Shown piece after piece: positions 24,153 through 51,696 of a stretch of 58,834 nucleotides of DNA (the stretch's first letter is position 1; each line of letters starts with the position of its first letter). The notes under the pieces are model-generated. The model saw nothing but the letters and a program-made list of their open reading frames with translations. It was not told the DNA's origin and searched no databases. This stretch comes from Desulforegulaceae bacterium. GTDB taxonomy: Bacteria > Desulfobacterota > Desulfobacteria > Desulfobacterales > JACKCP01. The stretch lies in NCBI GenBank assembly GCA_034006035.1, contig JAVETN010000014.1, forward strand, positions 1-58,834, given 5' to 3'. Both the position numbers and the translations under genes were made by a program.

Positions 24153-27100
24153 TTAAAAATTAACTGTTTCTGCAGATTTACACATTTGCTTCAAAGACTC
24201 TTTCCAGTCTTTTCCTCCAATTTCTTCTGCAATTGCTTCAGCAAGGTGAACAGGCTCAAATCCATTGTCTTTATTTCTGGATAAACCCTGAATACAGGAA
24301 GGGCAATTTGTATAAACTCTAGGCTCTTTGTTTTCAGAAAAATTGCTTTTAAGATACAAAAGGTCATGTTTCTTTTTTATAAGCATTGAGTTTGTAATAT
24401 CAGGCCTTGAAATTGACATTGTGCCTGCTTCTGAACAGCATGAATCTGTCATCATGGTTTTGCCATCACTTATTTTATTTAAGGCTCCAAGGGCGTTGTC
24501 CTCAGCGGAATCATGGCAGGGTTTATGATAAATACCCCTGGGAAGATTAATATCTTTTAGTCCATTATCCAGGGCATAAAGGCTTACATCTTTGATTTTT
24601 GTATCAAATATTTTTTCAACCTCAGTTTTTTTCAAAGTTTCCATACAGGTTCCGCAACTTACAACACAGGAATCAATATTAAGATATTTGAGCATTTCAT
24701 TTATCTGGTTGAAAACAATGGTATTTCTTAATTTAATATCACTGAAATCAAGGGTTTTTGCATTAATCTTAATAGGGAATCCACAGCAAAGATAAGGCGG
24801 TGGAAGAATTACCCTTTTTCCTGATTTCAAAAGAATATATAAAGAAGCCATTGAAATTGTGCCAAAAAGTCTTTCAGAGCCGCATCCCGGGAAATAAAAA
24901 ACGCTGGAATCAGTTTTTACAGGAGGATTTACAATCACAGCCTGGTTGTCAGAGCAGGACGGCAGATAATCTCTGATTGTTTCCTTTGAAGGGCCGGTTG
25001 CAGATGATTGAAGCATTAAATATGTTTTTCTGCTTTTTATAAATTCATTGTTAAGCGGGTCAATTTCAAAGTTTTTAATTTTGACAGGCAGTTTACCTTC
25101 AATATAATCCAGCCCTTTTTTTGCAAAATTTTGAACTTTTACCCCTGGTTTTAAAACAAGGTTTTTAAAAATTTTGTTCAAAGGCTGATTACTTGATTTT
25201 AAATATTTCAAAACAGCCCTGGTTCCAATTGGAGTATGTTTGTATTTTAAAGATGAAAGGATTTCTCTTTCAAGTATTGTAACTTCGCCTGTGTCAATAT
25301 CTACAGGGCAGGGAGGCTGACATTTATGACAAATTGTACAATAATCAGCTATTTCTTCAAGATAACTTAAAACATTGAATTTAGAGCCTGTGTGGGTTCT
25401 TTGGGCATCGTATAAGATAGCTTCAATTATTGCCGCAATTGCAAGGTTTTTATTCCTGGGATGATAAAACATATTTTTGTAAGGATAAAAAACACAGCAT
25501 ACAGGTTTGCATTTACAGCACCTGACACAAGTTGAAATTTTTTCAGCAAGGGTTTTAAGCGAACCATATTGTAAAATTGAAGCTTCAAGCCCAAGGAGAT
25601 TAAATGAAGGGGTAAAAACTTTTTTGTCTATAGATTGATCAGAAAGTTTTTTTGGATTCATTATGCCTTTTGGGTCTATTTTCTTTCTGTATTCATCCAG
25701 CCTTTTAATTTCTTCCTTATCCATATGCTTGATTTTTGTAATTCCAATTCCATGCTCACCGCTGACAACACCGCCAAGAGAAACAGTTTTTTCCATTATA
25801 TCATCGGCAGTTTTATGGGCTCTTGCCATCATTTCAACATCATTTGAAAATACAGGGATATTTACATGATTGTTTCCATCCCCTGCGTGCATATGGGTTG
25901 CAATTGTAATTTGTTTGTCTCTTGTTTCTTTTTTAACTTTTTCAATGGAATCTCTTATTTCACTGTCCCCGGTAAAAAGTTTAAAAAGTTTTTCCATAAA
26001 TTCTGAAAGAAATTTTTCATTTTCAAGGTCTTTGTTTGATGCTTTGTCAATGTTTTCAATTGTTTTACCGGCAATTTTTTCAAGCTCAGGAAACTTTGAA
26101 TCCATCCATTCCCTGTTTTCAAGCTTTGTCTGAAGGCTTTTTATATAACCTGAAAGAGTGGTTACCACCTGCTTTTGGCTGTGCCTGTTTTCATTTCTAT
26201 TGTATTCATCAACATATCTTGCAAAATCAGCAAGTGAACTTATGGGAAGAACCACATCTTCATTGAGTTTAAAAGCATTTGTTCTAGCTGCAATAGCTCC
26301 GAATTTTTTTCTGTCGGCCCAGAATCTATCAGCTTCTTTTTCATCTGCTGCAAAAAAGATTTCTGTGTTTTTATAGTTTTTGAGCAGCTCGTAAAATTTT
26401 TGTTTTCCAGCTTCAAGTTCTTTGGGAGTATTCCCAACAAGATCTATTAAAAGAACTGCCTTTGGAATTTCAGTTTTTGGGGCTTTAACCTTGTAATTAA
26501 TGGCTTTTATATATTCGTCATCAAAGTGTTCTAAAGCCATTAAGGTTTCTTTTGTTCTGTCCTCAAAAGATTTTGAAAGCTCTGAAATTACAAGACTTGC
26601 TTCATCCATGCTTTCACCGAAAAATTCAAGACAGCAGGTTGATTTGAATTTATAGTCTTCATAAAGAATAAAAGAAGCAGAAGTTATTATTCCGTCGCAT
26701 CCTTCTTTTTGAAGGCCTGGAACTCCGCTAAGAGTTTTGTTTGTAACATCTTTCCAAAGTCCTGGCTTTCTTATTTCACTTCCAAGAAGTTTAATTTCTT
26801 CTGACTTGTTTGTTGAAAGATTGGTAACTTTAAAAGTTACTATGTCCTCATGGATTATTTTTCTCATCCTATGGTCTGTTCTTTCCACAAAAAGAAAATA
26901 ACCTCCTGGCATAGCAACCTTAAAGTCCAATACATTGTCTATACAGGTCCCCCATAGAACAGCTTTTTTACCGCCTGCGTTTTCACTTATATTTCCGCCA
27001 AGAGTACAGGCCCAGGAGCTTGTGGGATCAGTTGCAAAAACAAGGTCATGTTCCTGGGCATACTTCATGGCCTGGTCTGTGATAACTCCAGCGTCTGCTT

Positions 27101-27824
27101 TTAAAACAGACATTTGTTTTTTTTCGCCGTTATCGCCTTCAAATTCTCTTTGTTCTATCCCGTTTATTCTTGCAAGCTTTTCAGTGTTAATCATTATACA
27201 GGTTTCATTGAGAGGAACTGCGCCTCCTGTAAGACCTGTGCCTGCTCCTCTTGGGATTACATGCATTCCAAGTTCTTCAACTGCTTTTAAAAGTTTTGGT
27301 ACCTGATCTTCGTGATAGGGGCGGACAACAGCCCAGGGAAGACACATTCTCCAGTCCGTTGCATCTGTGGCATGACTGTTTAAAGTGAAAGGGTCAAAAT
27401 ATACATTTTCTTTTTTGACAATTTCACCAAGAACTTTTAAAGCTTTTTTTCTTTTTTTATTAACTTGGTTTATTTCTTGTTTAAGATCTTCAAGAACTTT
27501 TCTGCATTTTTTTACAACAGGAAAAACATCATCATTTAAAGCTGCAGCCTCAATTAATGAAAGTTCATCTCCGCTTTTTTTAAAATATTCTTTTCTTCTT
27601 TTTGAAGAGTCAATCAGCTCCTGAAAAACAAAGGGATTTCTTTTAAGAATGAACATATCTCCGATAAATCTCATAAGAAGCCTGGCTGATTTTCCTGTAA
27701 CTCTTTGGGCTCTTAACCCTTCAAGGATCTGCCAGGTATCTTCTCCAAGGATTCTTGATACAATTTGTTCATCATCTGCTGAAGTATAATTATAAGGTAT
27801 TTCTCTATATCCTGTGCTTGTCAT
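24153..27824 (-). CDS. Giant FAD-linked oxidase fused to Fe-S and CCG domains, 1223 aa
   Basis: This is a GlcD/D-lactate-dehydrogenase-like enzyme with its electron-transfer subunit fused. An N-terminal domain that I take for DUF3683 (about residues 1-130) precedes a PCMH-type FAD domain (VIPRGAGTGLTGGAV near 200; DPTSSWACTLGGNISENAGG). A C-terminal FAD-oxidase part with HMHAGDGNNHVNIP and SGEHGIGITK follows. Then come two Fe-S cysteine clusters (CVRCCKCKPVCC near 795; CTICHKCQPPCP near 860) and CCG-type motifs (FPGCGSERLFG, LCCGFP, CGTCMETL, HKPCHDS, SCCSEAG, CPSCIQG). The likely role is oxidation of a 2-hydroxy acid into the quinone pool. The start at 27824 is chosen for its GAGG site. The upstream 13 codons lack one. 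Confidence 0.88.
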   Translation of the reverse strand: MTSTGYREIPYNYTSADDEQIVSRILGEDTWQILEGLRAQRVTGKSARLLMRFIGDMFILKRNPFVFQELIDSSKRRKEYFKKSGDELSLIEAAALNDDVFPVVKKCRKVLEDLKQEINQVNKKRKKALKVLGEIVKKENVYFDPFTLNSHATDATDWRMCLPWAVVRPYHEDQVPKLLKAVEELGMHVIPRGAGTGLTGGAVPLNETCIMINTEKLARINGIEQREFEGDNGEKKQMSVLKADAGVITDQAMKYAQEHDLVFATDPTSSWACTLGGNISENAGGKKAVLWGTCIDNVLDFKVAMPGGYFLFVERTDHRMRKIIHEDIVTFKVTNLSTNKSEEIKLLGSEIRKPGLWKDVTNKTLSGVPGLQKEGCDGIITSASFILYEDYKFKSTCCLEFFGESMDEASLVISELSKSFEDRTKETLMALEHFDDEYIKAINYKVKAPKTEIPKAVLLIDLVGNTPKELEAGKQKFYELLKNYKNTEIFFAADEKEADRFWADRKKFGAIAARTNAFKLNEDVVLPISSLADFARYVDEYNRNENRHSQKQVVTTLSGYIKSLQTKLENREWMDSKFPELEKIAGKTIENIDKASNKDLENEKFLSEFMEKLFKLFTGDSEIRDSIEKVKKETRDKQITIATHMHAGDGNNHVNIPVFSNDVEMMARAHKTADDIMEKTVSLGGVVSGEHGIGITKIKHMDKEEIKRLDEYRKKIDPKGIMNPKKLSDQSIDKKVFTPSFNLLGLEASILQYGSLKTLAEKISTCVRCCKCKPVCCVFYPYKNMFYHPRNKNLAIAAIIEAILYDAQRTHTGSKFNVLSYLEEIADYCTICHKCQPPCPVDIDTGEVTILEREILSSLKYKHTPIGTRAVLKYLKSSNQPLNKIFKNLVLKPGVKVQNFAKKGLDYIEGKLPVKIKNFEIDPLNNEFIKSRKTYLMLQSSATGPSKETIRDYLPSCSDNQAVIVNPPVKTDSSVFYFPGCGSERLFGTISMASLYILLKSGKRVILPPPYLCCGFPIKINAKTLDFSDIKLRNTIVFNQINEMLKYLNIDSCVVSCGTCMETLKKTEVEKIFDTKIKDVSLYALDNGLKDINLPRGIYHKPCHDSAEDNALGALNKISDGKTMMTDSCCSEAGTMSISRPDITNSMLIKKKHDLLYLKSNFSENKEPRVYTNCPSCIQGLSRNKDNGFEPVHLAEAIAEEIGGKDWKESLKQMCKSAETVNF

Positions 27825-27996
27825 TTTAGCCTCACACCAATAAAATAATTTTGTTAAAAACAACTAAAGTATCATATAATAAGAGTGGGTTAAATCTTTT
27901 AAAGGCAAAATAAAAAATTTATCTGAATTGAGCAGCTTTTAAGGGCTGTTTTTTAAGCTTAAACCCAGATTGAATAAAAAGAGCTGAGCTTAAACA

Positions 27997-39080: not shown

Positions 39081-39116
39081 AAAAATTAGTTTTGTTATAA
39101 GAATTTGGAGAAGTTT

Positions 39117-42100
39117 ATGAAAAGGTTTTTAAAGAAATTTTTTGTATTTATGATTTTGCTTTGGCCTTCTTATTTGTATTCCGCAGAAATTACTCCGGAA
39201 CAGATTGACAAGTTCGAAAATTTAACTGAATTGGAGCAGGAATATCTTAAAAGCCAATATCAGGCTAAAAAATCTTCTGGCCAAACTCCAGATAGCTTTG
39301 TTGAGCACCAGAGTGTAAAACCAAGGGCTGTTGAAACAACAATGGGTAAACCCGGTTCTGTTTATAAAGATACAGATATCTGGCAGCCTGGGTGGCAAGG
39401 GGTTAATTTAAAAAAATACGGCTATGATATTTTTTCCGGAAGTCCAACTACTTTTGCACCTGTAACTGAAATACCTGTACCAAGAGAATATATAATCGGG
39501 CCCGGAGATCAGGTGATTATTCAGATTTATGGAGGAGATAATATAAGTTATTCTCTTTTTATAAACAGAGAAGGAGTTTTAAATCTTCCTAATTTCGGTC
39601 CTGTAGTGGCCTCTGGAATGAGTTTTGACGAATTTAAATCTTTTATTACAAATAAAATAAAAAAAGAATCTGTGGGCAGTGAAGTGAGTGTAACTTTGGG
39701 AAAACTTCGTTCCATGAGAATTTTTGTACTAGGGGAGGTATTTAAGTCAGGAAGTTATACTTTAAGCTCTCTTTCCACACTTACCAATGCACTTCTTGTT
39801 TCAGGCGGGGTAAAAGATATTGGTTCCCTAAGAAATATCAAGCTCAAAAGAAACGGGGAAATTATCCAGACTTTTGACCTTTACGATCTTCTTCTTAAAG
39901 GAGACACAAAAAAAGATACCCGTCTTTTACCCGGTGATACAATTTTTATACCTGTTGTAGGCAGCCAGGTAGGAGTCAGAGGAGGAGTTAAAAGACCTGG
40001 GATTTATGAGCTTAAAGATGAAACAACCCTTGGTGAAATCATCAATATGGCAGGTGGGTTATGGAGAGCTAATGATCTTGAACTTATAAAAGTTTATACA
40101 ACAGATTCAGAAAACAAAAGGGTTTGTAAGGTTGTAAAGCTTGATAATTCTAATTGGGGAAATACAAAAATAAAGAAAAATGATTATATTTATATCCCAT
40201 ATTTTCAAAAAGAAACTCAAAAAATAATTACTCTTTCAGGTAATGTGTTTGCAGAAGGCACTTATGAATTTAAAAAAGGAATGAATCTTAGAACAATTAT
40301 TCCAAATCATGAAAAAGTTAAAAGAAACACAGATCTTGAATATGGAATTATTTTAAGGGAAAAATCAAGATTTGAACAATTTGAGGTTATTTCCTTTTCT
40401 CCTGAAAAAATAATTAACAAAACCCAAAATGTTTATTTAAAACCCTTTGATAGAATTTATATTCTTCCCAAAGATAATTCAAGACTAACTTATACCAATG
40501 CCATAGTCAGGCTTTTGAAATCCAGAATTTCCGACAGTGATGGAGTTGTTCCTACTGCAGCCATTAAGGGCAATGTTTTTTATCCAGGTCAATACCCTCT
40601 TTCACAGGGCGATACTGTAAATGACTATATAGAAAAGGCCTGTGGTCTTAAACCGTTTACAGAATTTGATTATTATGTTGTTTCAAGAATAAATAAAGAT
40701 TCAGGCCAATTATTTGTTTTTAACAATAGTCTTGAAAAAGACAAAGATTTTCAACTTGAACCCGGGGACTCAATTTATATTTTTTCTACGCGGGTAAACA
40801 GAGCAAATTTTTTAAAGCCTGTTGTAGGTCAAATATTATACGGAATGGAAGGTGGCGAATTTGAAGTTCCTGAAATTTTAAAGGTTTCTGATGATTCAGA
40901 AGTTTCTGTTTCAGGAACCGAAGTTTTTGAGCAGCCTGAGCAGGCAGAAAAGAGACTATCCGAGTCTGCTCAGGAAAGCATAGTAGAAACACCGCCATCA
41001 GTTCCTGGTGAAACTGCAGCTGAAATTGCCTCAAGTCCTGGAACTTTTTTAGGTGAAGATTCTCTAGGAGAGATTGTAAGCGGTAAAGGCTTTGAAAATT
41101 CAGAGTTTCCCTTTGTTACTCAAATTTCAGGAAACATAGCATATCCTGGGATTTATCCCTTAGCTTCTGAAGATACTCTGGGAAAACTGGTAGCTTATTC
41201 AGGAGGGCTTAAAATAGCCACTGATTTTAAGTACATTGTTCTGGTAAGAACATATAAAGACAATGGGAAAATAGAAGTTTTTAAGCTTGATTTAAATAAT
41301 AATCTTAATTTTCCCATCAAACCCCTTGATGAGCTTTATGTGTTTTCAAAAAACACAAACAGGCCGGCAGTGTTAAGTCGTGTAGTGAGCAAGCTTAAAA
41401 GTCAGGCTGATAACGAAGAAGCTTCTAGTGTTGTAAATATTGGAGGGAAAGTAAGATTTCCAGGAGAATATCCTCTTACCTTAGGACTTACAATCAAAGA
41501 TTTAATTGAATTTGCAGGGGGATTTGTTGAAGGTTCCTATGAAAAATATTGTGAAATTTCAAGGTCAGTAATTGATGATTTTGAAGAGTTTCGTATAAAA
41601 AGGCATAAAATAAATTTATCTGCCAAAGGTCTTAATGGTGTAGATGCTTTTTATCTTCAGCCAAGGGATCGGATTTTTATTAAAACTGTTCCATATTGGC
41701 GTGAGATTCCTTCTGTTTTAATTACAGGAGAAGTAAAGTTTCCCGGAGTATATTTCATAGAAAAAGGCGACACTATTTCAACTCTTGTTGAAATTGCCGG
41801 AGGACTTACAAACGACGCTTTTATTGACGGTAGTGTCTATATGAGAGAAGAACTGAAACAATTGGAAAAGCAAAGGTATGATGCCTATGTAGATCAGCTT
41901 TCAGCCCAGCTCTCCAGCAAAAAGCTTCAGGGTGCAGCAGTAGAAACCAGTCAACAGGAAGACGCTGCTCTTTTATCTTTGATTCAGAGAATTAAAAACG
42001 CAACACCAAGCGGAAGACTTGTAATTGACCTTGGGTCTGTTCTTTCAAAAAAGCAAAATGATATAAGGCTTAAAGATAAAGATCATCTTCATATCCCAAT

Positions 42101-42449
42101 GTATAAAGATGAGGTTACAGTAATGGGAGAAGTGTATACTCCTGTTTCCCATCTTTATCAAAGCGGGATGAAAGTTTTTGATTTTATAGATTCTTCAGGA
42201 GGGGTTACAGCAAGTGCTTCTGTTAAAAGAATTTATACAATCAGGGCAAACGGAAGGGTTGTTCCTTATAAATCAGGAAGTAAAGGTCTTTTTTCTTCAA
42301 AAAACAAGGATATTTATCCTGGAGATACAATTGTGGTACCCTATGATGTTACAGCTATGAGCGGTCTTGTTTTCTGGGGAGAAGTCACAAAAATTCTTTA
42401 CAACCTGGCCACTACTACAGCTGCTCTTAAAACTGTTGGTGTATATTAA
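39117..42449 (+). CDS. Polysaccharide export protein with many SLBB repeats, 1110 aa
   Basis: A signal peptide (residues 1-23, FVFMILLWPSYLYSA) leads to a Poly_export domain (YIIGPGDQVIIQIYGGD near 130). At least eight SLBB-like units follow, with cores such as GEVFKSGSYTL, GGVKRPGIYEL, GNVFAEGTYEF, GNVFYPGQYPL, GNIAYPGIYPL, GGKVRFPGEYPL, GEVKFPGVYFI and GEVYTPVSHLY. An acidic Ser/Glu/Pro linker sits near residues 590-640. The C-terminal stretch SGLVFWGEVTKILYNLATTTAALK may be the outer-membrane helix. The ATG at 39117 has GGAG 7 bases upstream. Usual Wza proteins are about 380 residues, so this is nearly three times longer. It probably forms the periplasmic and outer-membrane export channel together with the Wzz-like protein. 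Confidence 0.92.
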   Translation: MKRFLKKFFVFMILLWPSYLYSAEITPEQIDKFENLTELEQEYLKSQYQAKKSSGQTPDSFVEHQSVKPRAVETTMGKPGSVYKDTDIWQPGWQGVNLKKYGYDIFSGSPTTFAPVTEIPVPREYIIGPGDQVIIQIYGGDNISYSLFINREGVLNLPNFGPVVASGMSFDEFKSFITNKIKKESVGSEVSVTLGKLRSMRIFVLGEVFKSGSYTLSSLSTLTNALLVSGGVKDIGSLRNIKLKRNGEIIQTFDLYDLLLKGDTKKDTRLLPGDTIFIPVVGSQVGVRGGVKRPGIYELKDETTLGEIINMAGGLWRANDLELIKVYTTDSENKRVCKVVKLDNSNWGNTKIKKNDYIYIPYFQKETQKIITLSGNVFAEGTYEFKKGMNLRTIIPNHEKVKRNTDLEYGIILREKSRFEQFEVISFSPEKIINKTQNVYLKPFDRIYILPKDNSRLTYTNAIVRLLKSRISDSDGVVPTAAIKGNVFYPGQYPLSQGDTVNDYIEKACGLKPFTEFDYYVVSRINKDSGQLFVFNNSLEKDKDFQLEPGDSIYIFSTRVNRANFLKPVVGQILYGMEGGEFEVPEILKVSDDSEVSVSGTEVFEQPEQAEKRLSESAQESIVETPPSVPGETAAEIASSPGTFLGEDSLGEIVSGKGFENSEFPFVTQISGNIAYPGIYPLASEDTLGKLVAYSGGLKIATDFKYIVLVRTYKDNGKIEVFKLDLNNNLNFPIKPLDELYVFSKNTNRPAVLSRVVSKLKSQADNEEASSVVNIGGKVRFPGEYPLTLGLTIKDLIEFAGGFVEGSYEKYCEISRSVIDDFEEFRIKRHKINLSAKGLNGVDAFYLQPRDRIFIKTVPYWREIPSVLITGEVKFPGVYFIEKGDTISTLVEIAGGLTNDAFIDGSVYMREELKQLEKQRYDAYVDQLSAQLSSKKLQGAAVETSQQEDAALLSLIQRIKNATPSGRLVIDLGSVLSKKQNDIRLKDKDHLHIPMYKDEVTVMGEVYTPVSHLYQSGMKVFDFIDSSGGVTASASVKRIYTIRANGRVVPYKSGSKGLFSSKNKDIYPGDTIVVPYDVTAMSGLVFWGEVTKILYNLATTTAALKTVGVY

Positions 42450-42474
42450 TAATATAAATTAGGTGTGAATTTAA

Positions 42475-43386
42475 ATGAATCAGACTGGCTTACCTGAAAT
42501 TTATGATAAAGAATATTGTGATGAAGATGAAATAGATATTCTTGAGCTGATTAAAATACTCTGGGATAAAAAATGGATAATCATTGCCTCGGGTTTAATC
42601 TTTTCTGCCATTGCCATAGGCTATGCTCTTCTTTCCGATAGATATTATCTTGCTGAAACAACTTTGATAGTAGGAGATGAGGGTGGCAATAAAGGTTCAA
42701 GCCTTGGAAGACTAGGAGGTTTTGCAGCCATAGCAGGAGTTGATTTGTCAGACAGCAACCCAGACAAGAATTATTATATTGCAGTTTTAAAATCTAGAAT
42801 TTTTCTTAAAGAATTTATTGAGGAAAATAAATTAATGTCGATTTTTTATCAAGATATCTGGGATGATGAAAAACAAACCTGGATTCTTAAAAAAGATGAA
42901 GATCCCCCCTCAATTTATAAAGCATGTAAGTTTTTCAATGAAAGTATAATGACTGTGTCTGAAAATAAAGACAATTCTTTAATTTCACTTAAAGTTTCCT
43001 GGAAGGATCCCGAACTTGCATCAATTTGGGCAAACCAATTGGTTTTATTTGTAAATAATTATATAAGAGAGAGGAAAATAAACGAATATGACACAAAAGT
43101 TAAATACCTTGAAAAACAAATAGAGCAAACAAGTGTTGTCAATATGCAGAAAATCTTTTATAAACTGATAGAACAGCAAATCCAGAATCAATCTATGGCC
43201 CAGGTAAAAAAAGACTTTGCTTTTCAAGTCGTAGACCCGGCTGTTACACCTGAATTACCCCATAAGCCAAATAGAAAGTTAATAGTTTTGCTTGGAGGTT
43301 TTTCAGGAGGTTTCTTTGGAATCTTTCTGGTATTTGCTTTAAATTTTGTATCACAAGCTAAAGAAAGGTTTAAGGAAGAGTCTTAA
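42475..43386 (+). CDS. Wzz/chain-length determinant family protein, 303 aa
   Basis: The N-terminal cytoplasmic part EDEIDILELIKILWDKKWIIIASGLIFSAIAIGYAL gives the first membrane helix (about residues 35-55). A periplasmic coiled region (about 60-255) includes YYIAVLKSRIFLKEFI. It is followed by DPAVTPELPHKPNRKLIVLLGGFSGGFFGIFLVFAL, a proline-rich motif and second helix. This is the co-polymerase (PCP) architecture without a C-terminal kinase domain. It regulates polymer length and contacts the exporter. It follows the SLBB gene by 25 bases and forms one operon with it. Confidence 0.92.
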   Translation: MNQTGLPEIYDKEYCDEDEIDILELIKILWDKKWIIIASGLIFSAIAIGYALLSDRYYLAETTLIVGDEGGNKGSSLGRLGGFAAIAGVDLSDSNPDKNYYIAVLKSRIFLKEFIEENKLMSIFYQDIWDDEKQTWILKKDEDPPSIYKACKFFNESIMTVSENKDNSLISLKVSWKDPELASIWANQLVLFVNNYIRERKINEYDTKVKYLEKQIEQTSVVNMQKIFYKLIEQQIQNQSMAQVKKDFAFQVVDPAVTPELPHKPNRKLIVLLGGFSGGFFGIFLVFALNFVSQAKERFKEES

Positions 43387-43423: not shown

Positions 43424-44965
43424 ATGAAGAAATTATTTAAAAGTTTGAGTTTGATCTTTGCTTTAATGGGCATGATCTTTATTGCTGGTTGTGGTGATGG
43501 GGATGATTTTGAGCTTATAGGAAAAAAGATAACTGGGGCTGCTCAGGATGGATATCTTGTTGATTCAACTGTTTTTATTGATCTAAATGAAAACAATAAA
43601 CCAGATCCTGGAGAACCAAGTGCTATTACAAATATGGATGGTAAATTTGATCTTAACTTAAGTGATTCAGACTTAGAGTTTCCTTTAGTTGTTATCGGCG
43701 GTAAAGACAAAGGCTCTTGGGATACAGGAGCAAATGATTATGCAGAGTTTCGCGGTGTTTTTCAGGCACCTGCGCCTGAAGTTGGAAAAAAAGCAATTAT
43801 AAGCCCTGTAACAACCATGATTTATCAGTATAAAAAAGATACCGGCAAATCAACAAAAGAGGCAAATGATTTTATAGCAGAAAGACTTGGTGTGAAGGGT
43901 ATGGATCTTCTTGCAACTGACGTAGTTGCTGATAGAAGTGAAGATGCCCAGAAAATTTACAAGTTTAATGTTATTTTGGCAAGTGCAATTAAGGTTGCGG
44001 CAGATGTTTCTGAGATTGATTTTGCAGATGCTACTCAAAAAATAGCTTTAGAAATGGCAGGATATGATTTGAGTAATTTGAGTAATCTTAACACAGCTAT
44101 TGAAAATTCAATGGAAAAAGCATTTGAAGGTAAAAATGTTACTGAAGCTAGTAAAGCTAAAGAGCTTGTAAAGAATATTTCTACAGGAATTTATAAAAAA
44201 AGTGATGATGATCTATATGATGAAATTGCTCTTGTAACAAGTTATCTTGAAGCCGTATCTGATGATATTAAGGACGGAATTGTAACAGTACCTCCAGTAG
44301 GAAAGACTGTTGCCGATATAGCAAAGGATGAATTAAAGAAGGCCGTGAAAGGCAACGCTGATGCAGCAGGTACAAAACTTTCTACTCCGATTAAAGGTTT
44401 TTATCTTAAGGGTAATCAATTTAACGGTGAAAATGTATCTAAATCAGGGAACTGTGGGGATATAACTCGTTCTAGTGGTGTTCTTCCTAAAGTTAAATTT
44501 GAACTTGTAAACTCAGGAGCAGGTATAGAACAAAAAGCTGAAGTTATAGTTAAAATTGAATCAGGTGAAGACAAAAGATATTTTAGCTTAACTATCCCTG
44601 TAAGCCTGAAGTCGGAAAGTTCAACAGTGGATTTGAAAGTTGCAAAAGGTGCAAAAGTTCAAGTAGTTAAGGGAGATTCAGAAGGTAACTTAGTGGAGTC
44701 AGAGCTTGTAAATGAAAAAGAAGATTCTTTAACAGCTAGTGGTGAAGTTCTAATAGATCTTGAAGAATGGTATGACAGATTTAATGAAAAACTATCAACT
44801 GACGAAAAAATAGCTGTAGATCTTGATAAACTAACAGTTTCGGGCAAAGTTAAAGTGATTTTTTCATTAAAAACTACACCAGAAATTGTTTTTGGTTATG
44901 CTAATGAAGATGGAAATATTACAAACAAGTTTACATCTGTTTATGGTAATATTGTATTTAATTAA
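43424..44965 (+). CDS. Predicted lipoprotein with repeat-like beta domain, 513 aa
   Basis: The signal peptide ends in a lipobox (GMIFIAGC, Cys near residue 23). It is followed by GAAQDGYLVDSTVFIDLNENNKPDPGEPSAITNMDGKFDL, which resembles the calcium-binding SdrD-B/carboxypeptidase-regulatory-like beta fold of surface proteins. The rest has a helical middle (about 130-300) and a beta-rich end (about 330-513). The family is not recognised. Asp after Cys (CGDG) at +2 could mark retention in the inner membrane by the E. coli rule, which may not hold here. It lies 37 bases after the wzz-like gene and is closed by a terminator. Confidence 0.75.
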   Translation: MKKLFKSLSLIFALMGMIFIAGCGDGDDFELIGKKITGAAQDGYLVDSTVFIDLNENNKPDPGEPSAITNMDGKFDLNLSDSDLEFPLVVIGGKDKGSWDTGANDYAEFRGVFQAPAPEVGKKAIISPVTTMIYQYKKDTGKSTKEANDFIAERLGVKGMDLLATDVVADRSEDAQKIYKFNVILASAIKVAADVSEIDFADATQKIALEMAGYDLSNLSNLNTAIENSMEKAFEGKNVTEASKAKELVKNISTGIYKKSDDDLYDEIALVTSYLEAVSDDIKDGIVTVPPVGKTVADIAKDELKKAVKGNADAAGTKLSTPIKGFYLKGNQFNGENVSKSGNCGDITRSSGVLPKVKFELVNSGAGIEQKAEVIVKIESGEDKRYFSLTIPVSLKSESSTVDLKVAKGAKVQVVKGDSEGNLVESELVNEKEDSLTASGEVLIDLEEWYDRFNEKLSTDEKIAVDLDKLTVSGKVKVIFSLKTTPEIVFGYANEDGNITNKFTSVYGNIVFN

Positions 44966-44988
44966 CCAATAAAAAGTTACTAATTATT

Positions 44989-45024
44989 AAAGTCTGTCCA
45001 TTTAATTAAGGGCAGACTTTTTTT
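44989..45024 (+). terminator. Rho-independent terminator
   Basis: An 11-bp stem AAAGTCTGTCC / GGGCAGACTTT with one wobble pair and loop ATTTAATTAA is followed by TTTTTAT. It ends the polysaccharide operon before the barrel gene. Confidence 0.9.
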
Positions 45025-45043
45025 ATAACTTCAGGCAGAGTCT

Positions 45044-46156
45044 ATGAAAAAATTAATTTTATCTTTTATCTTTTTATTTGTTTTTATAAATAATTCTTTT
45101 GCTTTTTTTGATAGAACAGGGAGGTTAACTGACAATTCTTTTTGGTTTAAAGAATTAAATTCTATAAATTTAGAATTCCAATATCTTGATAAAAACTTTG
45201 ACCCTTTTGATGTAATTAAAAATGAAAGCAAAACCATTAATTTAGATTCAATTTCTGCCCCCGGAGATATGGTCGGCGGTAAATTAAAGTTCTTTTATAA
45301 TTTTTCACCTTTGATAAGTGCAGAACTTACAGCAGGACAAGCTGACTATGATTATGGACTAGATTCTATCAAAGTTGATCAATTAGGGATTGAATTAAAT
45401 TTAAAAAAACAAATCAATCGTTTTGTTTTTGTTTTCTCAGCAGGCTATGAATATATGAATGCTGATGATATTAAATATTCAAATTTAGACAACTTAAACT
45501 TTATGGCTAAAAGAATTTTTCCAGGTCAAAAGATTGAGGTAGTTTTCAGTGAAGAAAATGGCTATGGTTTTAAAAAAGATAAGATAGCTGTATTTAGTAA
45601 AGATGCTAAAAATTTAGACAAGCCCTATATCTCAATTAAAGATATGGATTCTTCCTCTTTTTATTCAGGAGCTTCAATTCATTATAATTATAATAAAATT
45701 TATTCAGGTTTTTTTGGGGAAATTGGAAAAACCAAGGTAAATGCCGCCATTGATACAAATTTGGATGATTATTCAAAAAGCCTTGAAAAATATATGACAG
45801 AAAACCAAAAAAAAGCATTAAACTCTTTTCCAATTAATCTTGACAGAGATGATGAAACCTATTTTTCTGCAGGTACTTACCTTCAATTCCCTTTAATTTT
45901 TGATTTAAAGCTAAACCTTGTATACACTTTTATTCGTTTTAACAGAGACAGTGATTTAGATTATGAACCTGACAACCATGCTTTAAATGTTTCACTTATT
46001 TATCCTTTAACAGAAAAAATCTCCCTAAACTTTGGCGGTCAATATTTATACAGACAGTTAAACGGAGTAGTTCCATTTTTATACAACAAATACACCCAGA
46101 CAACTTTTGATCATAAATATGGATATTTACACGCAGGCCTGACCTACTCTTTTTAA
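45044..46156 (+). CDS. Predicted outer-membrane beta-barrel protein, 370 aa
   Basis: A signal peptide (LILSFIFLFVFINNSFA) precedes a mature chain with many alternating strands. Examples are SINLEFQYLDKNFD, FNFSPLISAELTAGQADYDYGL, FVFVFSAGYEYM, DLKLNLVYTFIRF and ISLNFGGQYLYR. It ends in HAGLTYSF, whose terminal Phe is typical of Bam substrates. The family is not recognised. It follows the polysaccharide operon but has its own transcription unit between two terminators. A role in surface-polymer export or adhesion is possible only by position. Confidence 0.75.
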   Translation: MKKLILSFIFLFVFINNSFAFFDRTGRLTDNSFWFKELNSINLEFQYLDKNFDPFDVIKNESKTINLDSISAPGDMVGGKLKFFYNFSPLISAELTAGQADYDYGLDSIKVDQLGIELNLKKQINRFVFVFSAGYEYMNADDIKYSNLDNLNFMAKRIFPGQKIEVVFSEENGYGFKKDKIAVFSKDAKNLDKPYISIKDMDSSSFYSGASIHYNYNKIYSGFFGEIGKTKVNAAIDTNLDDYSKSLEKYMTENQKKALNSFPINLDRDDETYFSAGTYLQFPLIFDLKLNLVYTFIRFNRDSDLDYEPDNHALNVSLIYPLTEKISLNFGGQYLYRQLNGVVPFLYNKYTQTTFDHKYGYLHAGLTYSF

Positions 46157-46157
46157 A

Positions 46158-46190
46158 TTAAGGGCAGATTTATGCCCTTAAATTTTTATT
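46158..46190. terminator. Bidirectional terminator
   Basis: A perfect 9-bp stem TTAAGGGCA / TGCCCTTAA with loop GATTTA has A- and T-runs on both sides. It serves the barrel gene (plus) and the AGPS-like gene (minus), whose stops flank it. Confidence 0.88.
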
Positions 46191-47874
46191 CAATCCCAAG
46201 AATACCCCTGGAGTTCATTATTTTATTTTCATCAAAATAATTTTTAACAGCTTTTAAAAAATCATTTTCATTTTTTCCAATATGATTTTTTAAATAAGGA
46301 CCCATCATTTTCCCAATTCCATGATGATGGGATAGTGATCCTCCGCTTAAATCAATTTTTTCAATAATTTTTCTTTGAAAATTAATATACTCATCTTTTG
46401 AATTAAATTTACCCATGAAAATAAAATATAAATTTGTTCCCTGGGGATAAAAATGGGAACAATGGGTCATACAAATGGTTTGGTTTCTTTTTTTGATAAA
46501 ACTTCGTACATTTTTATGCACCTTATGAAGATTTGACCATTTAACGCTTGTTTCCAAAGTATCAATATAAATTCCAAAATCGTTTAAATCTTCTCTTAAA
46601 TAAGGATCTTTATATCTTCCCTCTTCCCATTTTGAAACAGGATATCCAGTCAAATAAGTTCCCTTAAATTTTTTGGATATTTTTTTAATGTTTTTAAATA
46701 CAGATTTGGAAAAAGGTTTTAATCCTTCAGTATGGCCAAGCATAAGACATCTTTTCATGGGTAAATAGCCTTTGAGCTTCATAAATCCATCAAAAGGAGT
46801 TCCTTCAATTCCATAAAGCTTAAGGCCTATATCTGTTTCTTCTTCATCAGAAATTCTTAATACAGCAGGAAGTCCTCCTTCAGACTGAATAATTTCCCTT
46901 GAAGCATTTACAGCGTCTTTCCATGAAGGAAACACAAATGAAAACTTTTTTCTATTTTCAGGCATAAATCTGAATACTTTTAGTTTAAGCTCAACTAAAA
47001 TTCCAAAAATCCCCTCACTTCCCAAAAATATTTGACCTAAATCTGGGCCGGTTGCGGTTGCAGGAAAATCCAAAGTTTTAATTTTTCCTTTGGGAGTAAT
47101 GTATTCTTGAGAAATTACAAGGTCTTTGGCATCTCCATAATAAGTGGAAGCCTGACCTGAACCAAGGGTTAACACCCATCCTCCGGCTGTGGAATATTCA
47201 AAGGACTGGGGAAAATGTCCGCAGGTATATTTTCTTTTGGCATTTAAAATTTTTGGGGCCTGATTTAAAATTCTTTCAAGATCAGGGCCCATAATTCCTG
47301 GCTCAACTGTAATTGTTTGATCAATTTCATTAAACTCAATCACTTTGTTCATATAAGTTGAAAAAACAAGGGTTACTCCGCCTTCAGGGCATTGGTGGCC
47401 TAAAGTTACTGAAGATCCCCCGGAATATACATGGACAGGGATTTTGTTTTTATTGCAGATATTTACAATTTGAGAAATTTCATTTTTGTTTCTTGGATGA
47501 ATAATAATCTCTGTTAAATTTTCAATTGATTTTTGTCTTAAATTTATTGATTCTTCCAGGGTTTTTCCATTGGAATATTTTACCCTTGAATAAAGATCAG
47601 ATTCAATATTTTCATTGCCTGAAATTTCAATAAATTTTTCAATTATTTCACTTAAAATTTTTGTTTCAGATTCACCTTTAACTTCATCATTTCCCAAATC
47701 TGATAAAGGCTTTATAAAATCATTGTCAGTTAGGTCAAAAGTCTTTTTAATTAAGGAGTAAAGTCTTTTATTGGGATGTTTAAATTCATTGGGATCTCCC
47801 CACTTAAAAATTGATCTAAAACTATTTTTGGCAGGAGCTGTTTTCACCCATTCTGGCTCAAAGTTTTTTTTCAT
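46186..47874 (-). CDS. FAD-binding oxidase resembling alkyl-dihydroxyacetonephosphate synthase, 562 aa
   Basis: The PCMH-type FAD domain carries VYSGGSSVTLGH, TVEPGIMGPDLERIL, SFEYSTAGGWVLTLGSGQASTYYGDAKDLV and TATGPDLGQIFLGSEG. These align well, from memory, with the same blocks of eukaryotic AGPS. The C-terminal GGSLSHHHGIGK has the triple-His active-site motif of AGPS, not the EHGIG of GlcD/lactate dehydrogenases. AGPS swaps the acyl chain of acyl-DHAP for a fatty alcohol to make the ether bond. It is the last gene of a FadR-GlpD-FGGY kinase operon and begins 9 bases after the kinase. A different FAD oxidase role remains possible. Confidence 0.82.
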   Translation of the reverse strand: MKKNFEPEWVKTAPAKNSFRSIFKWGDPNEFKHPNKRLYSLIKKTFDLTDNDFIKPLSDLGNDEVKGESETKILSEIIEKFIEISGNENIESDLYSRVKYSNGKTLEESINLRQKSIENLTEIIIHPRNKNEISQIVNICNKNKIPVHVYSGGSSVTLGHQCPEGGVTLVFSTYMNKVIEFNEIDQTITVEPGIMGPDLERILNQAPKILNAKRKYTCGHFPQSFEYSTAGGWVLTLGSGQASTYYGDAKDLVISQEYITPKGKIKTLDFPATATGPDLGQIFLGSEGIFGILVELKLKVFRFMPENRKKFSFVFPSWKDAVNASREIIQSEGGLPAVLRISDEEETDIGLKLYGIEGTPFDGFMKLKGYLPMKRCLMLGHTEGLKPFSKSVFKNIKKISKKFKGTYLTGYPVSKWEEGRYKDPYLREDLNDFGIYIDTLETSVKWSNLHKVHKNVRSFIKKRNQTICMTHCSHFYPQGTNLYFIFMGKFNSKDEYINFQRKIIEKIDLSGGSLSHHHGIGKMMGPYLKNHIGKNENDFLKAVKNYFDENKIMNSRGILGIE

Positions 47875-47883
47875 TTTCTTCCC

Positions 47884-49440
47884 TTATTTATAAATTTCAG
47901 GATAACCTGTGATTTTTCTAATTTCTTTATAAACAGGCTCTAAAGCATGATAAATTTTTGAATAAACATTTTTGTAAATTTTTTTATATAATAAAGCATT
48001 GGATTTATCAGGATAAAACTTATCCCCATATTCAACCATATTTTCTCCGGCTTCTTTAATGTCTTTATAAAAACCAAGTCCTGCTGCTGTTATTATTGCA
48101 GCCCCAAGCCCTGAAGTTTCGGAAGTTTTTCCTCTGATTATTGGTCTGTTGAAAATATCAGCTGAAATCTGGCAGATATTGTCACTTTGGGAGGCTCCTC
48201 CTGAAACAGCAAGTTTTTTTACTTTTATTTTTGATTTTTTTTCAATTTTTAAAAGCCCGTCATAAAGAGCAAATGACAATCCTTCAATTACTGCTCTGTA
48301 AACATGGGCTCTTGTATGAACATCTCCAAAACCTATGATGGCGCCTTTAGCATCAAGATGATTTAATCCAGGACTCCAAAAAGGCTGAAGAATAAGCCCC
48401 ATGGCTCCTGGAGGAGTTTTGTCAAGAAGTTTGTTTAAAAGCACTTCAGGTAAAATCCCTGTTTTTTGGGATTCGTTTATTTCAGGATGGGCAAACTCGT
48501 TTTTATACCAGGTTATCATCCAATATCCCCTGAAGATTTCCACTTCAGGATTATAATGTCCTGGATAAGGGGCAGGATAGGCAGGCATGAATTTTATTGG
48601 CTCAAAATATTTTTTGCTGGTTGTTTGAACAGTGGCAGTGGTTCCAAAGCTTAAAGAAGCAATTTCAGGAGAATATACTCCCATTCCAATGGTTTCACAG
48701 CCTTTATCAGAACCGCAGGCTATTATAGGGATTCCTTTTTTAAGTCCGGTTTCTTTAGCAGCTTTTAAACTGAGCTTTCCTATTAAATCTCCGGGTTCTA
48801 CCAGTTCTGGAAGTTTTGATTTTTCAATGGGAAATAAAAGAGACTGGATTTCGCCATTTAAAGCCCAGTTCATTTTTTTATAATTAAAGGGTAAATGACC
48901 AATTTGAGAAGCTTTTGAGTCTTTAAATTCACCTGTTAATTTAAAATTTAAAAAACCTGACACTTGAAGGTATTTAAATGTTTTATCCCAGATTTGTGCT
49001 TCATTTTGCTTTATCCAATTGGATTTTCCCTCGGTTTGAACTTTATAAATTGTTTCAAGCATTCCAAGGGCTTTTGCTCCTGCTTTTACAAAAGAATTCG
49101 GCTTAAAAACAGGGGCTGCTTTTCTTTGGTCAAGCCAGGTGATTGCATCTCTTAAATGGTTGCCGTTTTTATCACAGCAAATCATTGTATTTCTTTGGGC
49201 AGTTATTCCTATTCCTTTAATTTTATCTATCAATTCAGGATTTCTTTGTTTAAGTTTTTTTATTCCATTTATTGTGCTTCCCCAGAAAATATCAGGATTT
49301 TGTTCAGCCCATCCAGGGTTTTTACTGAAATATGGAAGATATTCAGTTCTTTCTCCGGCAAGAAGATTGCCCTTTAAATCAAATATATGCACTCTTAAAC
49401 TTTGAGTACCGCAGTCTATGGATAAAACAAGAGATTCCAT
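47884..49440 (-). CDS. FGGY-family carbohydrate/polyol kinase, 518 aa
   Basis: The two actin-like ATPase domains are visible in LVLSIDCGTQSLRVHIFDLKG at the N-terminus, GITAQRNTMICCDKNGN, IIACGSDKGCETIGMG, SLSFGTTATVQTT and LAVSGGASQSDNICQISADIFNRP, the FGGY C-terminal signature region. The family phosphorylates glycerol, xylulose and related substrates. The next gene being a GlpD-like dehydrogenase suggests glycerol or a glycerol derivative as substrate. It starts 11 bases downstream of the dehydrogenase and is followed after 9 bases by the AGPS-like gene. The length of 518 residues is typical. Confidence 0.9.
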   Translation of the reverse strand: MESLVLSIDCGTQSLRVHIFDLKGNLLAGERTEYLPYFSKNPGWAEQNPDIFWGSTINGIKKLKQRNPELIDKIKGIGITAQRNTMICCDKNGNHLRDAITWLDQRKAAPVFKPNSFVKAGAKALGMLETIYKVQTEGKSNWIKQNEAQIWDKTFKYLQVSGFLNFKLTGEFKDSKASQIGHLPFNYKKMNWALNGEIQSLLFPIEKSKLPELVEPGDLIGKLSLKAAKETGLKKGIPIIACGSDKGCETIGMGVYSPEIASLSFGTTATVQTTSKKYFEPIKFMPAYPAPYPGHYNPEVEIFRGYWMITWYKNEFAHPEINESQKTGILPEVLLNKLLDKTPPGAMGLILQPFWSPGLNHLDAKGAIIGFGDVHTRAHVYRAVIEGLSFALYDGLLKIEKKSKIKVKKLAVSGGASQSDNICQISADIFNRPIIRGKTSETSGLGAAIITAAGLGFYKDIKEAGENMVEYGDKFYPDKSNALLYKKIYKNVYSKIYHALEPVYKEIRKITGYPEIYK

Positions 49441-49451
49441 TTATTTTCCTG

Positions 49452-50963
49452 TTAAATTATTTTTGGTGAAAAATATTTTTTATAAATTGAAATATATCTT
49501 TTAATTTCAAAATCCCATTTATCATTATCCCAGCCAAGATTTTCAAAGCTTATTTTTTTTATTTCATCCATATAATCAAGCCCGGCATTTTTTAAAACAA
49601 GTCCAAGTCTTGTTCTTCTGATCAGCAAATCATCAAGGTGTTTTATTGTTTCATCTTTTGAAGCACAATAAACTTCAGCTAAACTTATGGGAGTATTTTC
49701 TATGTTTTTAAAAAGTGAATTTATTTTACAATATTTTAAATCAGCATTAAAAGAATATCTTCCAATCAGTCTTAATTCTTCATCAGAAGAATAGGATTTT
49801 AAAGTTTTAAAGACAGGATCTTTTTTATTTTTTAATTTTATCTTTTTAAAATGTCTATCAAGATGTTTGATTGTATCCCAGGCAAGTTTTCTAAAAGTTG
49901 TAAGTTTTCCACCTGTTACAGAAATAATTTTATTGTTTTCCCAGACAAGATGTTCCCTTGATTCTTTTGAAGGAGGTTTGTTGGTGTTTTTAGAACTTAT
50001 TACAGGCCTTATTCCTGAAAAAGAAGAAATTATATCTTTATCTAGGATTTTATTTTTACCAAGAATATGATTTGCCCCCTCAATAAGATAGGCTGCCTCT
50101 TTTTTATTTATTTTAAGGTCTTTAAATGAATTTGCATCAATATCAGTTGTCCCAAGAATTAAAACTCCTTCAAAGGGAATGAAAAACACAGGTCTTTTAT
50201 CTTTGGGATGAGTAAATGAAAGTGCAAAATCAAGATTTAATTTGTTTTTTATTGTAAGGTGACTTCCTTTTAAAGGTCTTATAAAGCTGTTTTTTTCAGG
50301 AAGTGAAGATAAGTTTGAAGCATAAACTCCAGAAGCATTTATTATTATTTTTGTTTTTAATTTTTTTATTTTCCCAGATTCTGTTTTTCCATGAACAATT
50401 TTACTCCCTTTTATATCTTCAATTTTTACAACTTCACAATAATTTTCAAAATAAGTGTTTTTAGATCTTAAACCCTCATTTATAAGCCTTGCTACAAGAG
50501 CAGAATCATCAACTGCTGCATCAACAAAAGAAAATCCCCCATTTAAATTTTCAAGGTTTAAGTTTGAAAATTTGGTTAAAAGATTTTTTTTGTCAATATA
50601 TTTATGACGCAATTTCAAAGCCATTAAATCATAAATACAAAGCCCGGCTTTCATTGATAGTTTTCCAGGGGACTGGCCTTTATACAAAGGCATTATAAAT
50701 TCAATTGGAGAAACAAGGCCTTTTGCTTCATTTAAAAGCCTTTCTCTATGGACAACAGATTCATGGGTCAAATGAAGATTGCCATCTTTAAGGTATCTCA
50801 ATCCTCCATGAACAAGTTTTGAAGATTTGCTTGAAGTGCCTGACCCAAAATCGCCCTTGTCAATTATAAGAATTTTAAGTCCGGAGCAGGAAATCTCATT
50901 GAAAATACCAGCCCCTGTAATTCCTCCGCCAATTATGATTATGTCAAAACTTTGATCTTCCAT
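49452..50963 (-). CDS. FAD-dependent glycerol-3-phosphate dehydrogenase-like protein, 503 aa
   Basis: The FAD site is FDIIIIGGGITGAGIFNEIS. It is followed by SGTSSKSSKLVHGGLRYLKDGN, the glycine/serine-rich segment with HGGLRYL that is diagnostic of GlpD. IIIINASGVYAS-type and IPFEGVLILGTTDIDAN segments and GIRPVIS also belong to this family. GlpD oxidises glycerol-3-phosphate to DHAP at the membrane and passes electrons to quinone. The length of 503 is like E. coli GlpD. The ATG at 50963 is preferred (GGGAG 8 bases upstream). It lies 4 bases after the fadR-like stop, so the genes are coupled. Confidence 0.9.
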   Translation of the reverse strand: MEDQSFDIIIIGGGITGAGIFNEISCSGLKILIIDKGDFGSGTSSKSSKLVHGGLRYLKDGNLHLTHESVVHRERLLNEAKGLVSPIEFIMPLYKGQSPGKLSMKAGLCIYDLMALKLRHKYIDKKNLLTKFSNLNLENLNGGFSFVDAAVDDSALVARLINEGLRSKNTYFENYCEVVKIEDIKGSKIVHGKTESGKIKKLKTKIIINASGVYASNLSSLPEKNSFIRPLKGSHLTIKNKLNLDFALSFTHPKDKRPVFFIPFEGVLILGTTDIDANSFKDLKINKKEAAYLIEGANHILGKNKILDKDIISSFSGIRPVISSKNTNKPPSKESREHLVWENNKIISVTGGKLTTFRKLAWDTIKHLDRHFKKIKLKNKKDPVFKTLKSYSSDEELRLIGRYSFNADLKYCKINSLFKNIENTPISLAEVYCASKDETIKHLDDLLIRRTRLGLVLKNAGLDYMDEIKKISFENLGWDNDKWDFEIKRYISIYKKYFSPKII

Positions 50964-50967
50964 TAAT

Positions 50968-51651
50968 TTAACTCCCATTGAGTTTTTTCCAGATAGATAT
51001 TGATTCTTTCATTGATTCAGATATCAAAAATTCAGGGTTTTTATTTTGGGCCAAAATAGATTTAAGTTCATTGTAAAAGGTTGTTGATGAAGTTTTTGCT
51101 TTTTTCAGTTTAAAATATTTTTCACCAAAATATAAAAATAAAGGTTTGAAATCATTGAAAAGAAGCTTGTAAACCCTGTTTTCAGAGAATTCCACAATTT
51201 TTTCCTGAAGCTGCCAATCATAAAGGGTAAACTCTTTTGGGGATGAATTTTCTTGGGGAATTTTAAGGTTCATTAGCTGATTAAAAGAATCAAGGTTTTT
51301 ATTAAAAGCGGTTTTGGCACAAATGGGAAGAATTCCAGCCCTGACTTCAAGCAGATCAATAATTAATGGAAAAGGGAAAAGATCTTTATTTTCATTGAGT
51401 CCTGTTAAAATTCCAAGGCCTCCCACATCCCAGAAGTTGTTTACTGTGGATGATTTCCCGTGCTTTATGGAAATCCAACCTTCTTTTTCCACGAGTTTAA
51501 GCACTTCTCTTAAGGTTGCTCTTGTAACTCCAAGATGTTTGGAAAGTTTTCTTTCCGAAGGAAGATTTGTTCCGGGTTCCCATTCACCTTTAATTATTTT
51601 TCTTATTATTTTACTTCTTGCATGGGCACCGGGTTTGACAGGTTTGTTCAT
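50968..51651 (-). CDS. FadR-type GntR-family regulator, 227 aa
   Basis: The N-terminal winged helix-turn-helix (about residues 8-70) reads PSERKLSKHLGVTRATLREVLKLVEKEGW, with KHGK in the wing. This is followed by NNFWDVGGLGILTGL. These are the residues that distinguish true acyl-CoA-binding FadR from other GntR proteins, including the arginines and the wing histidine used for operator contact. A helical C-terminal domain of FadR length follows (DLLEVRAGILPICAKTAF). The start at 51651 is chosen because GGGAG lies 6 bases upstream. The 10 extra codons to 51681 would run into the operator. It heads the operon and probably represses itself until acyl-CoA binds. Confidence 0.88.
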   Translation of the reverse strand: MNKPVKPGAHARSKIIRKIIKGEWEPGTNLPSERKLSKHLGVTRATLREVLKLVEKEGWISIKHGKSSTVNNFWDVGGLGILTGLNENKDLFPFPLIIDLLEVRAGILPICAKTAFNKNLDSFNQLMNLKIPQENSSPKEFTLYDWQLQEKIVEFSENRVYKLLFNDFKPLFLYFGEKYFKLKKAKTSSTTFYNELKSILAQNKNPEFLISESMKESISIWKKLNGS

Positions 51652-51679
51652 TTTTTTCTCCCAAAGATTGATTTCTGGC

Positions 51680-51696
51680 AAGAGGTCATACCAGTT
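51680..51696 (-). promoter_or_regulatory. FadR operator overlapping the operon promoter
   Basis: The minus strand reads AACTGGTATGACCTCTT. The E. coli FadR consensus (from memory, AACTGGTCnGACCAGTT) agrees at 13 of the 16 specified positions, and the core CTGGTAyGACC equals that of fadB-type sites. It starts 29 bases upstream of the FadR ATG. It contains TATGAC, a -10-like hexamer 17 bases from TTGTTT, so binding would block transcription of its own operon. Confidence 0.75.

Follow-up and report, generated by a model that had tools for sequence, protein, structure and literature searches.

Ether lipids resist ester hydrolysis, and the gene cassette described here bears on their consumption in anoxic settings. 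Alkylglycerol monooxygenase (AGMO), which requires O2, has been described as the sole known enzyme for the breakdown of alkylglycerol ethers (PMC7911779). Catalysis by AGPS (alkyl-DHAP synthase, ADPS), the ether-forming enzyme of the eukaryotic plasmalogen pathway, passes through a flavin-DHAP adduct, and an arginine, a tyrosine and another arginine matter for catalysis in the Dictyostelium enzyme (PMC3509576). In bacteria, MXAN_1676 from Myxococcus xanthus shares 42% identity with human AGPS (PMC9131029), and the homologs of Ger and PlsA, the glycerol ester reductases, are not distinguishable from each other by sequence (PMC11868695).

In a stretch of 58,834 nucleotides from a Desulforegulaceae bacterium (the whole of which is referred to as the window), an AGPS-like gene is part of a cassette of four ORFs, all on the minus strand (Table 1). 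The gaps between the genes for the GlpD-like protein and the FGGY kinase and between those for the kinase and the AGPS-like protein are 11 and 9 bases, respectively, and the 3' end of fadR is overlapped by the GlpD-like ORF by 11 bases. The domain assignments (FAD_binding_4, FAD-oxidase_C, FGGY_N/C, DAO with DAO_C, GntR and FadR_C) all exceed the Pfam cut-offs, and the four tightly packed genes and their families are as given in the preliminary description of this DNA. The listed start of fadR, TTG at 51681, is probably wrong, the better candidate being the ATG at 51651, which is preceded by the ribosome-binding sequence GGGAG. A scan of the region upstream of the cassette found no promoter or terminator. 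On the plus strand, positions 39105-43386 encode a 1114-aa protein that resembles a polysaccharide exporter and, as read from the sequence, has many SLBB-like repeat units, followed by a Wzz-like protein; this pair lies directly upstream of genes at 43424-46156 that point towards the cassette.

Table 1. Features of the cassette, with positions in the window
Feature	Position	Strand	Remarks
FadR-type operator AACTGGTATGACCTCTT	51680..51696	(-)	45 bp upstream of fadR ATG
FadR-family GntR regulator	50968..51651	(-)	GntR + FadR_C
GlpD-like FAD glycerol-3-phosphate-type dehydrogenase	49452..50978	(-)	508 aa; DAO + DAO_C
FGGY kinase, distinct subfamily	47884..49440	(-)	518 aa; FGGY_N/C
AGPS-family flavoenzyme	46186..47874	(-)	562 aa; FAD_binding_4 + FAD-oxidase_C

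Sequence searches with the AGPS-like protein identified the AGPS of Dictyostelium (1.5e-62) and guinea pig (1.2e-53) as its best relatives of solved structure, with glycolate oxidase detected only at 2.4e-17. In a Foldseek search with the predicted structure (pLDDT 88), the top 37 rows are all AGPS chains, with D-lactate dehydrogenase below them, and in a tree, the finer placement in which is limited by long branches, the protein groups with (eukaryotic) AGPS, apart from the GlcD homolog of the same genome. The protein contains the motif SLSHHHGIGK and the equivalents of guinea-pig R419, R515, Y578 and the HHH motif at 615-617; these are R340, R427, Y483 and H516-518, which practically all of the 96 close relatives keep. 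Sequence, predicted fold and catalytic residues show this flavoenzyme to be a true member of the AGPS family, the characteristic activity of which is the exchange of acyl for alkyl on DHAP, and the earlier assignment, together with the comparison of AGPS and GlcD families suggested with it, came out in favor of AGPS. An identity as GlcD or another 2-hydroxyacid oxidase was rejected because the NCBIfam GlcD model, the cut-off of which is 568, gave a score of 125 bits, and because of the separation in the tree and the differences of the same-genome GlcD homolog at most of the AGPS catalytic positions. The window encodes another PF02913 protein that is not AGPS-like, namely a 1236-aa D-2-hydroxyacid dehydrogenase-like fusion (24153-27863, minus strand) with DUF3683, FAD_binding_4, FAD-oxidase_C, 4Fe-4S and CCG domains.

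The kinase had been described as a glycerol-type FGGY kinase, of which the family assignment stands and the reading as a plain glycerol kinase does not. The glycerol contacts of GlpK are R84, E85, Y136, D246 and Q247; a residue comparison showed that the GlpK-like R83, W102 and D245 are invariant in the FGGY kinase and that the equivalents of E85, Y136, Q247 and F271 are altered. Plain glycerol kinase was rejected for the loss of several of these contacts, for a score of 161 bits against the NCBIfam GlpK model, the cut-off of which is 590, and for the presence of a canonical GlpK encoded elsewhere in the host genome, separately from the cassette, so that the cassette kinase is not needed for glycerol. 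The AlphaFold model (pLDDT 92.5) matches glycerol and xylulose kinases equally, with Z of 35-38, and the fold does not separate the two. The altered contacts are consistent with a glycerol substituted at the other end, and we propose that the protein is an alkylglycerol kinase.

For the GlpD-like protein, the best NCBIfam model is GlpD itself, with 255 bits, below the cut-off of 360, and the structure with PDB code 3da1 is matched at 1.9e-49. Compared with 3da1, the motifs HGGLRYL, KGxHL, GxRP and GGKLTxxRKxA are retained; HGGLRY, KGxH, GxRP and GGKLT are the G3P-binding motifs of GlpD. We propose that this enzyme catalyzes the conversion of alkyl-G3P to alkyl-DHAP. No further GlpD or GlpA homolog was found in the host genome, and the enzyme therefore probably serves plain G3P too.

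The FadR-like protein scores above the cut-offs for both of its domains (60 bits for GntR and 90 bits for FadR_C) and does not reach the curated NCBIfam FadR models (165 vs 189). Between the fadR ATG and the preceding gene lies AACTGGTATGACCTCTT, which has 0 mismatches to AACTGGTNNGACNNNTT and thereby agrees at every position with the operator consensus of E. coli FadR. In relatives from Desulfobacterota and Chloroflexota, the operator is conserved 35-72 bp upstream of fadR, with 13/13 positions matching in the window and in six other loci (L033, L088, L091, L100, L130 and L131) and 12/13 in two more (L030 and L078), compared with ~8.2 of 13 in shuffled controls. The control by FadR that had been claimed for the cassette is borne out by this operator. 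In the whole genome, it is the sole site with fewer than 2 mismatches to AACTGGTNNGACCNNTT, and the cassette FadR is the one FadR_C protein encoded. A global FadR regulon was rejected because the other genomic sites have at least 2 mismatches and are fewer than those of a reversed-pattern control. The regulator appears to be a local autorepressor of the cassette operon and not a fatty-acid regulator with global reach. Acyl-CoA is the effector in the FadR family, and by analogy, we infer that it may be the effector here as well.

We surveyed the neighborhoods, ~5 kb around the AGPS gene, of 80 named AGPS relatives from many phyla. An FGGY kinase is encoded in 48 of these neighborhoods, a GlpD- or GlpA-type dehydrogenase in 60, both in 40, and neither in 12, some of which are cut by contig ends. 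The gene order varies and includes divergent arrangements, indicating that the co-localization is not simply an inherited order. Among 57 relatives from the same taxonomic order, 26 encode the kinase, including all 16 that have a close AGPS homolog (hypergeometric 9e-8); this co-occurrence and the recurrence of the gene set in several phyla are not due to chance. The carriers include sulfate reducers, syntrophs, clostridia, spirochaetes and Chloroflexota, with Caloramator quimbayensis, Fusibacter bizertensis and Oceanirhabdus seepicola among the cultured ones, and the set is kept in many anaerobes in shuffled orders, which bears out the co-conservation expected in the preliminary description. 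In genomes with the kinase and without AGPS, no substitute flavoenzyme adjoins the kinase gene, the neighbors of which are unrelated housekeeping genes. No fatty-acyl reductase or DHAP acyltransferase was found in the cassette or among the recurrent neighbors, and no transporter in the cassette or recurrently near it in close relatives.

GlpD also accompanies a second AGPS subfamily, with ~30% identity, which in one genome is joined by FadR and FGGY as well. The partners of AGPS are themselves exchanged for functional equivalents in some lineages. A BFD-domain flavoprotein of the GlpO-II/GlpA-like kind, together with a Pyr_redox protein and DUF1667, takes the place of GlpD in Clostridia; and in Streptomyces and Tsukamurella, AGPS is adjacent to GlpD, a TetR regulator and, in place of FGGY, a lipid kinase of the YegS/Rv2252 type, a swap that points to a lipid substrate. 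We read these swaps as selection for three reactions, namely phosphorylation, oxidation at C2 and AGPS chemistry. In one locus (L132:3568-12549), the genes that flank the AGPS homolog (54%) are not those of its usual partners and encode two methyltransferases of the MTTB family, a transporter of the MFS type and an FGGY kinase that is divergent (25%). In six Syntrophaceae-like genomes (L058, L064, L066, L068, L069 and L072), a DUF362 gene is located directly downstream of the AGPS gene and, where a kinase is present, between the two.

The conversion of alkylglycerol to alkyl-DHAP, the product of AGPS, requires exactly a kinase and a G3P-type dehydrogenase. The gene content, the operator and the active sites are observed, and the direction and the substrate are what we infer: self-contained, oxygen-independent catabolism of glycerol ether lipids is, in our estimate, slightly favored. 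Under this model, the FGGY kinase would act on a 1-O-alkyl(or alkenyl)glycerol liberated from membrane lipids and phosphorylate its free sn-3 hydroxyl, and the GlpD-like flavoprotein would oxidize the sn-2 hydroxyl of the resulting 1-O-alkyl-glycerol-3-phosphate to give 1-O-alkyl-DHAP, passing the electrons to the quinone pool. The AGPS-like enzyme would then run AGPS chemistry in reverse, from alkyl-DHAP to DHAP and a fatty alcohol: Tyr483 would deprotonate C1, the flavin N5 would capture C1 with departure of the fatty alcohol, and the flavin-DHAP iminium would be resolved by water (or a carboxylate) to yield DHAP (or acyl-DHAP). The flavin-DHAP adduct of AGPS implies that each half-reaction is chemically reversible in principle. 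DHAP would enter glycolysis, and the fatty alcohol would be oxidized to acyl-CoA and then β-oxidized; the host genome encodes nine acyl-CoA dehydrogenases. FadR would repress its own operon at the single site until long-chain acyl-CoA arising from the pathway released it. Several observations count against catabolism: the literature searches yielded no report of AGPS turning over in reverse with water, the cassette has no dedicated alcohol dehydrogenase, lipase or transporter, distant AGPS-like enzymes are paired with sugar kinases and sugar transporters (see below), neither partner is found in the 12 neighborhoods mentioned above, and the position of guinea-pig Asp303 is occupied by Gln in the bacterial enzymes (96/96 close relatives, 7/8 sequences of the second group, and most other bacterial homologs examined).

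The same enzymes could be arranged for ether-lipid biosynthesis, with the kinase and GlpD supplying DHAP from glycerol and the AGPS-like enzyme making alkyl-DHAP in the eukaryotic direction. The conserved AGPS fold and catalytic residues fit this arrangement, as do the slight contribution of MXAN_1676 to the ether lipids of Myxococcus (PMC9131029), the alkyl ethers made by sulfate reducers (PMC11150832) and the interpretation of bacterial Agps hits in environmental surveys (PMC11868695). However, synthesis by AGPS depends on a supply of fatty alcohol and acyl-DHAP, and the fatty-acyl reductase and DHAP acyltransferase that would be expected are missing from the cassette and its recurrent neighbors, and DHAP is already a glycolytic intermediate, which makes a kinase and a G3P-type dehydrogenase superfluous. 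Moreover, anaerobes make ether lipids by Ger/PlsA, and the host genome encodes two Ger/PlsA-like DUF2229 proteins of ~1400 aa (G000:C13:49935-50594 and G000:C4:197585-198208), which suggests that the host is capable of producing alkyl or alkenyl ether lipids without AGPS. Taken together, the absence of the reductase and the acyltransferase, the presence of the kinase and the dehydrogenase, and the Ger/PlsA-like genes elsewhere favor ether breaking, and we consider biosynthesis unlikely. The kinase, glycerol-phosphate dehydrogenase and AGPS route outlined in the preliminary description is thus supported by gene set, families and co-conservation, and its choice between forming and breaking the alkyl-DHAP ether, initially left open, shifts towards breaking.

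Alternatively, the compound catabolized might be soluble (a polyol, a sugar ether or a derivative of glycerol), and the AGPS-like enzyme would then act on a small keto-phosphate. The best curated model for the kinase is xylulokinase, with a score below the cut-off, and genes for distant AGPS-like enzymes adjoin those for xylulokinase-like kinases and ABC transporters of sugars in Alphaproteobacteria, or those for a glycerol dehydrogenase and the GlpP antiterminator in Enterococcus. However, the equivalent of guinea-pig R515, which is kept in the window protein, in eukaryotic AGPS and in the lipid-kinase-linked actinobacterial proteins, is absent in the sugar-linked and Enterococcus enzymes examined, suggesting that the distant enzymes use a different substrate. 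A recurrent transporter is lacking in the cassette and in the neighborhoods of close relatives, control is by FadR and not LacI, and the partner swapped in by Actinobacteria is a lipid kinase; a soluble substrate for the cassette is accordingly improbable, and possible for the wider AGPS-like family. Two loci on alphaproteobacterial plasmids (L186:6891-16922 and L187:6474-16046) combine an AGPS-like enzyme that has no R515 equivalent with LacI regulators, ABC transporters and kinases resembling xylulokinase, and may represent a related pathway that handles a soluble substrate. Ordinary use of glycerol or lysolipids, in which the AGPS-like protein would hydrolyze acyl-DHAP or be a generic oxidase of 2-hydroxyacids, has in its favor that the cassette GlpD is the sole homolog in the genome; yet a separate canonical GlpK exists, the AGPS-specific residues, most of which differ in GlcD, are conserved, and esters require no such route, so that we regard this explanation as very unlikely.

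The cassette is real and conserved, and is probably an anaerobic route of ether-lipid degradation. The broader proposition, that oxygen-independent ether-lipid degradation is widespread and that an AGPS-family flavoenzyme cleaves the alkyl-DHAP ether bond, is in our judgment evenly poised. The cassette is in any case a directly testable candidate for the recycling of glycerol ether lipids without oxygen. If the prediction is true, Agps homologs of the cassette type in anaerobes mark consumers, not producers, of ether lipids, which changes the reading of surveys that count Agps homologs as ether-lipid or plasmalogen producers (PMC11868695).

In the open-access literature searched, no description of this gene set was found, which agrees with the initial statement that no described system of this exact composition was known; the enzymes are of known families, in a possibly new combination. 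The glp regulon (GlpK-GlpD) likewise has a kinase followed by an FAD dehydrogenase, but the FGGY kinase of the cassette lacks several of the GlpK glycerol contacts, and the cassette has an additional AGPS gene and FadR control. The actinobacterial GlpD-TetR-AGPS-YegS cluster shares the three reaction types, with a kinase, a G3P-type dehydrogenase and AGPS, and differs in having a DAGK/YegS lipid kinase and TetR where the cassette has FGGY and FadR; Rv2249c-Rv2252 of Mycobacterium is another cluster of this type, and the function of these actinobacterial clusters is not known to have been established. Eukaryotic AGPS shares with the cassette enzyme its fold and FAD domain as well as the HHH motif and the catalytic Arg/Tyr/Arg, whereas the identity is ~30%, the cassette enzyme has Gln in place of Asp303, and the eukaryotic partners are GNPAT, FAR1 and alkyl-DHAP reductase instead of a kinase and GlpD. 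The Myxococcus operon MXAN_1676-1674 also includes a bacterial AGPS homolog but, unlike the cassette, encodes domains that serve synthesis, namely FAR and a GNPAT-like acyltransferase (PMC9131029). AGMO would resemble the proposed pathway in cleaving alkylglycerol ethers, but it depends on O2 and tetrahydrobiopterin and has no relationship to the cassette enzymes. Ger/PlsA likewise belongs to the anaerobic metabolism of ether lipids and occurs in bacteria of the same kind, but produces ethers from esters and, in the host genome, is represented at loci separate from the cassette.
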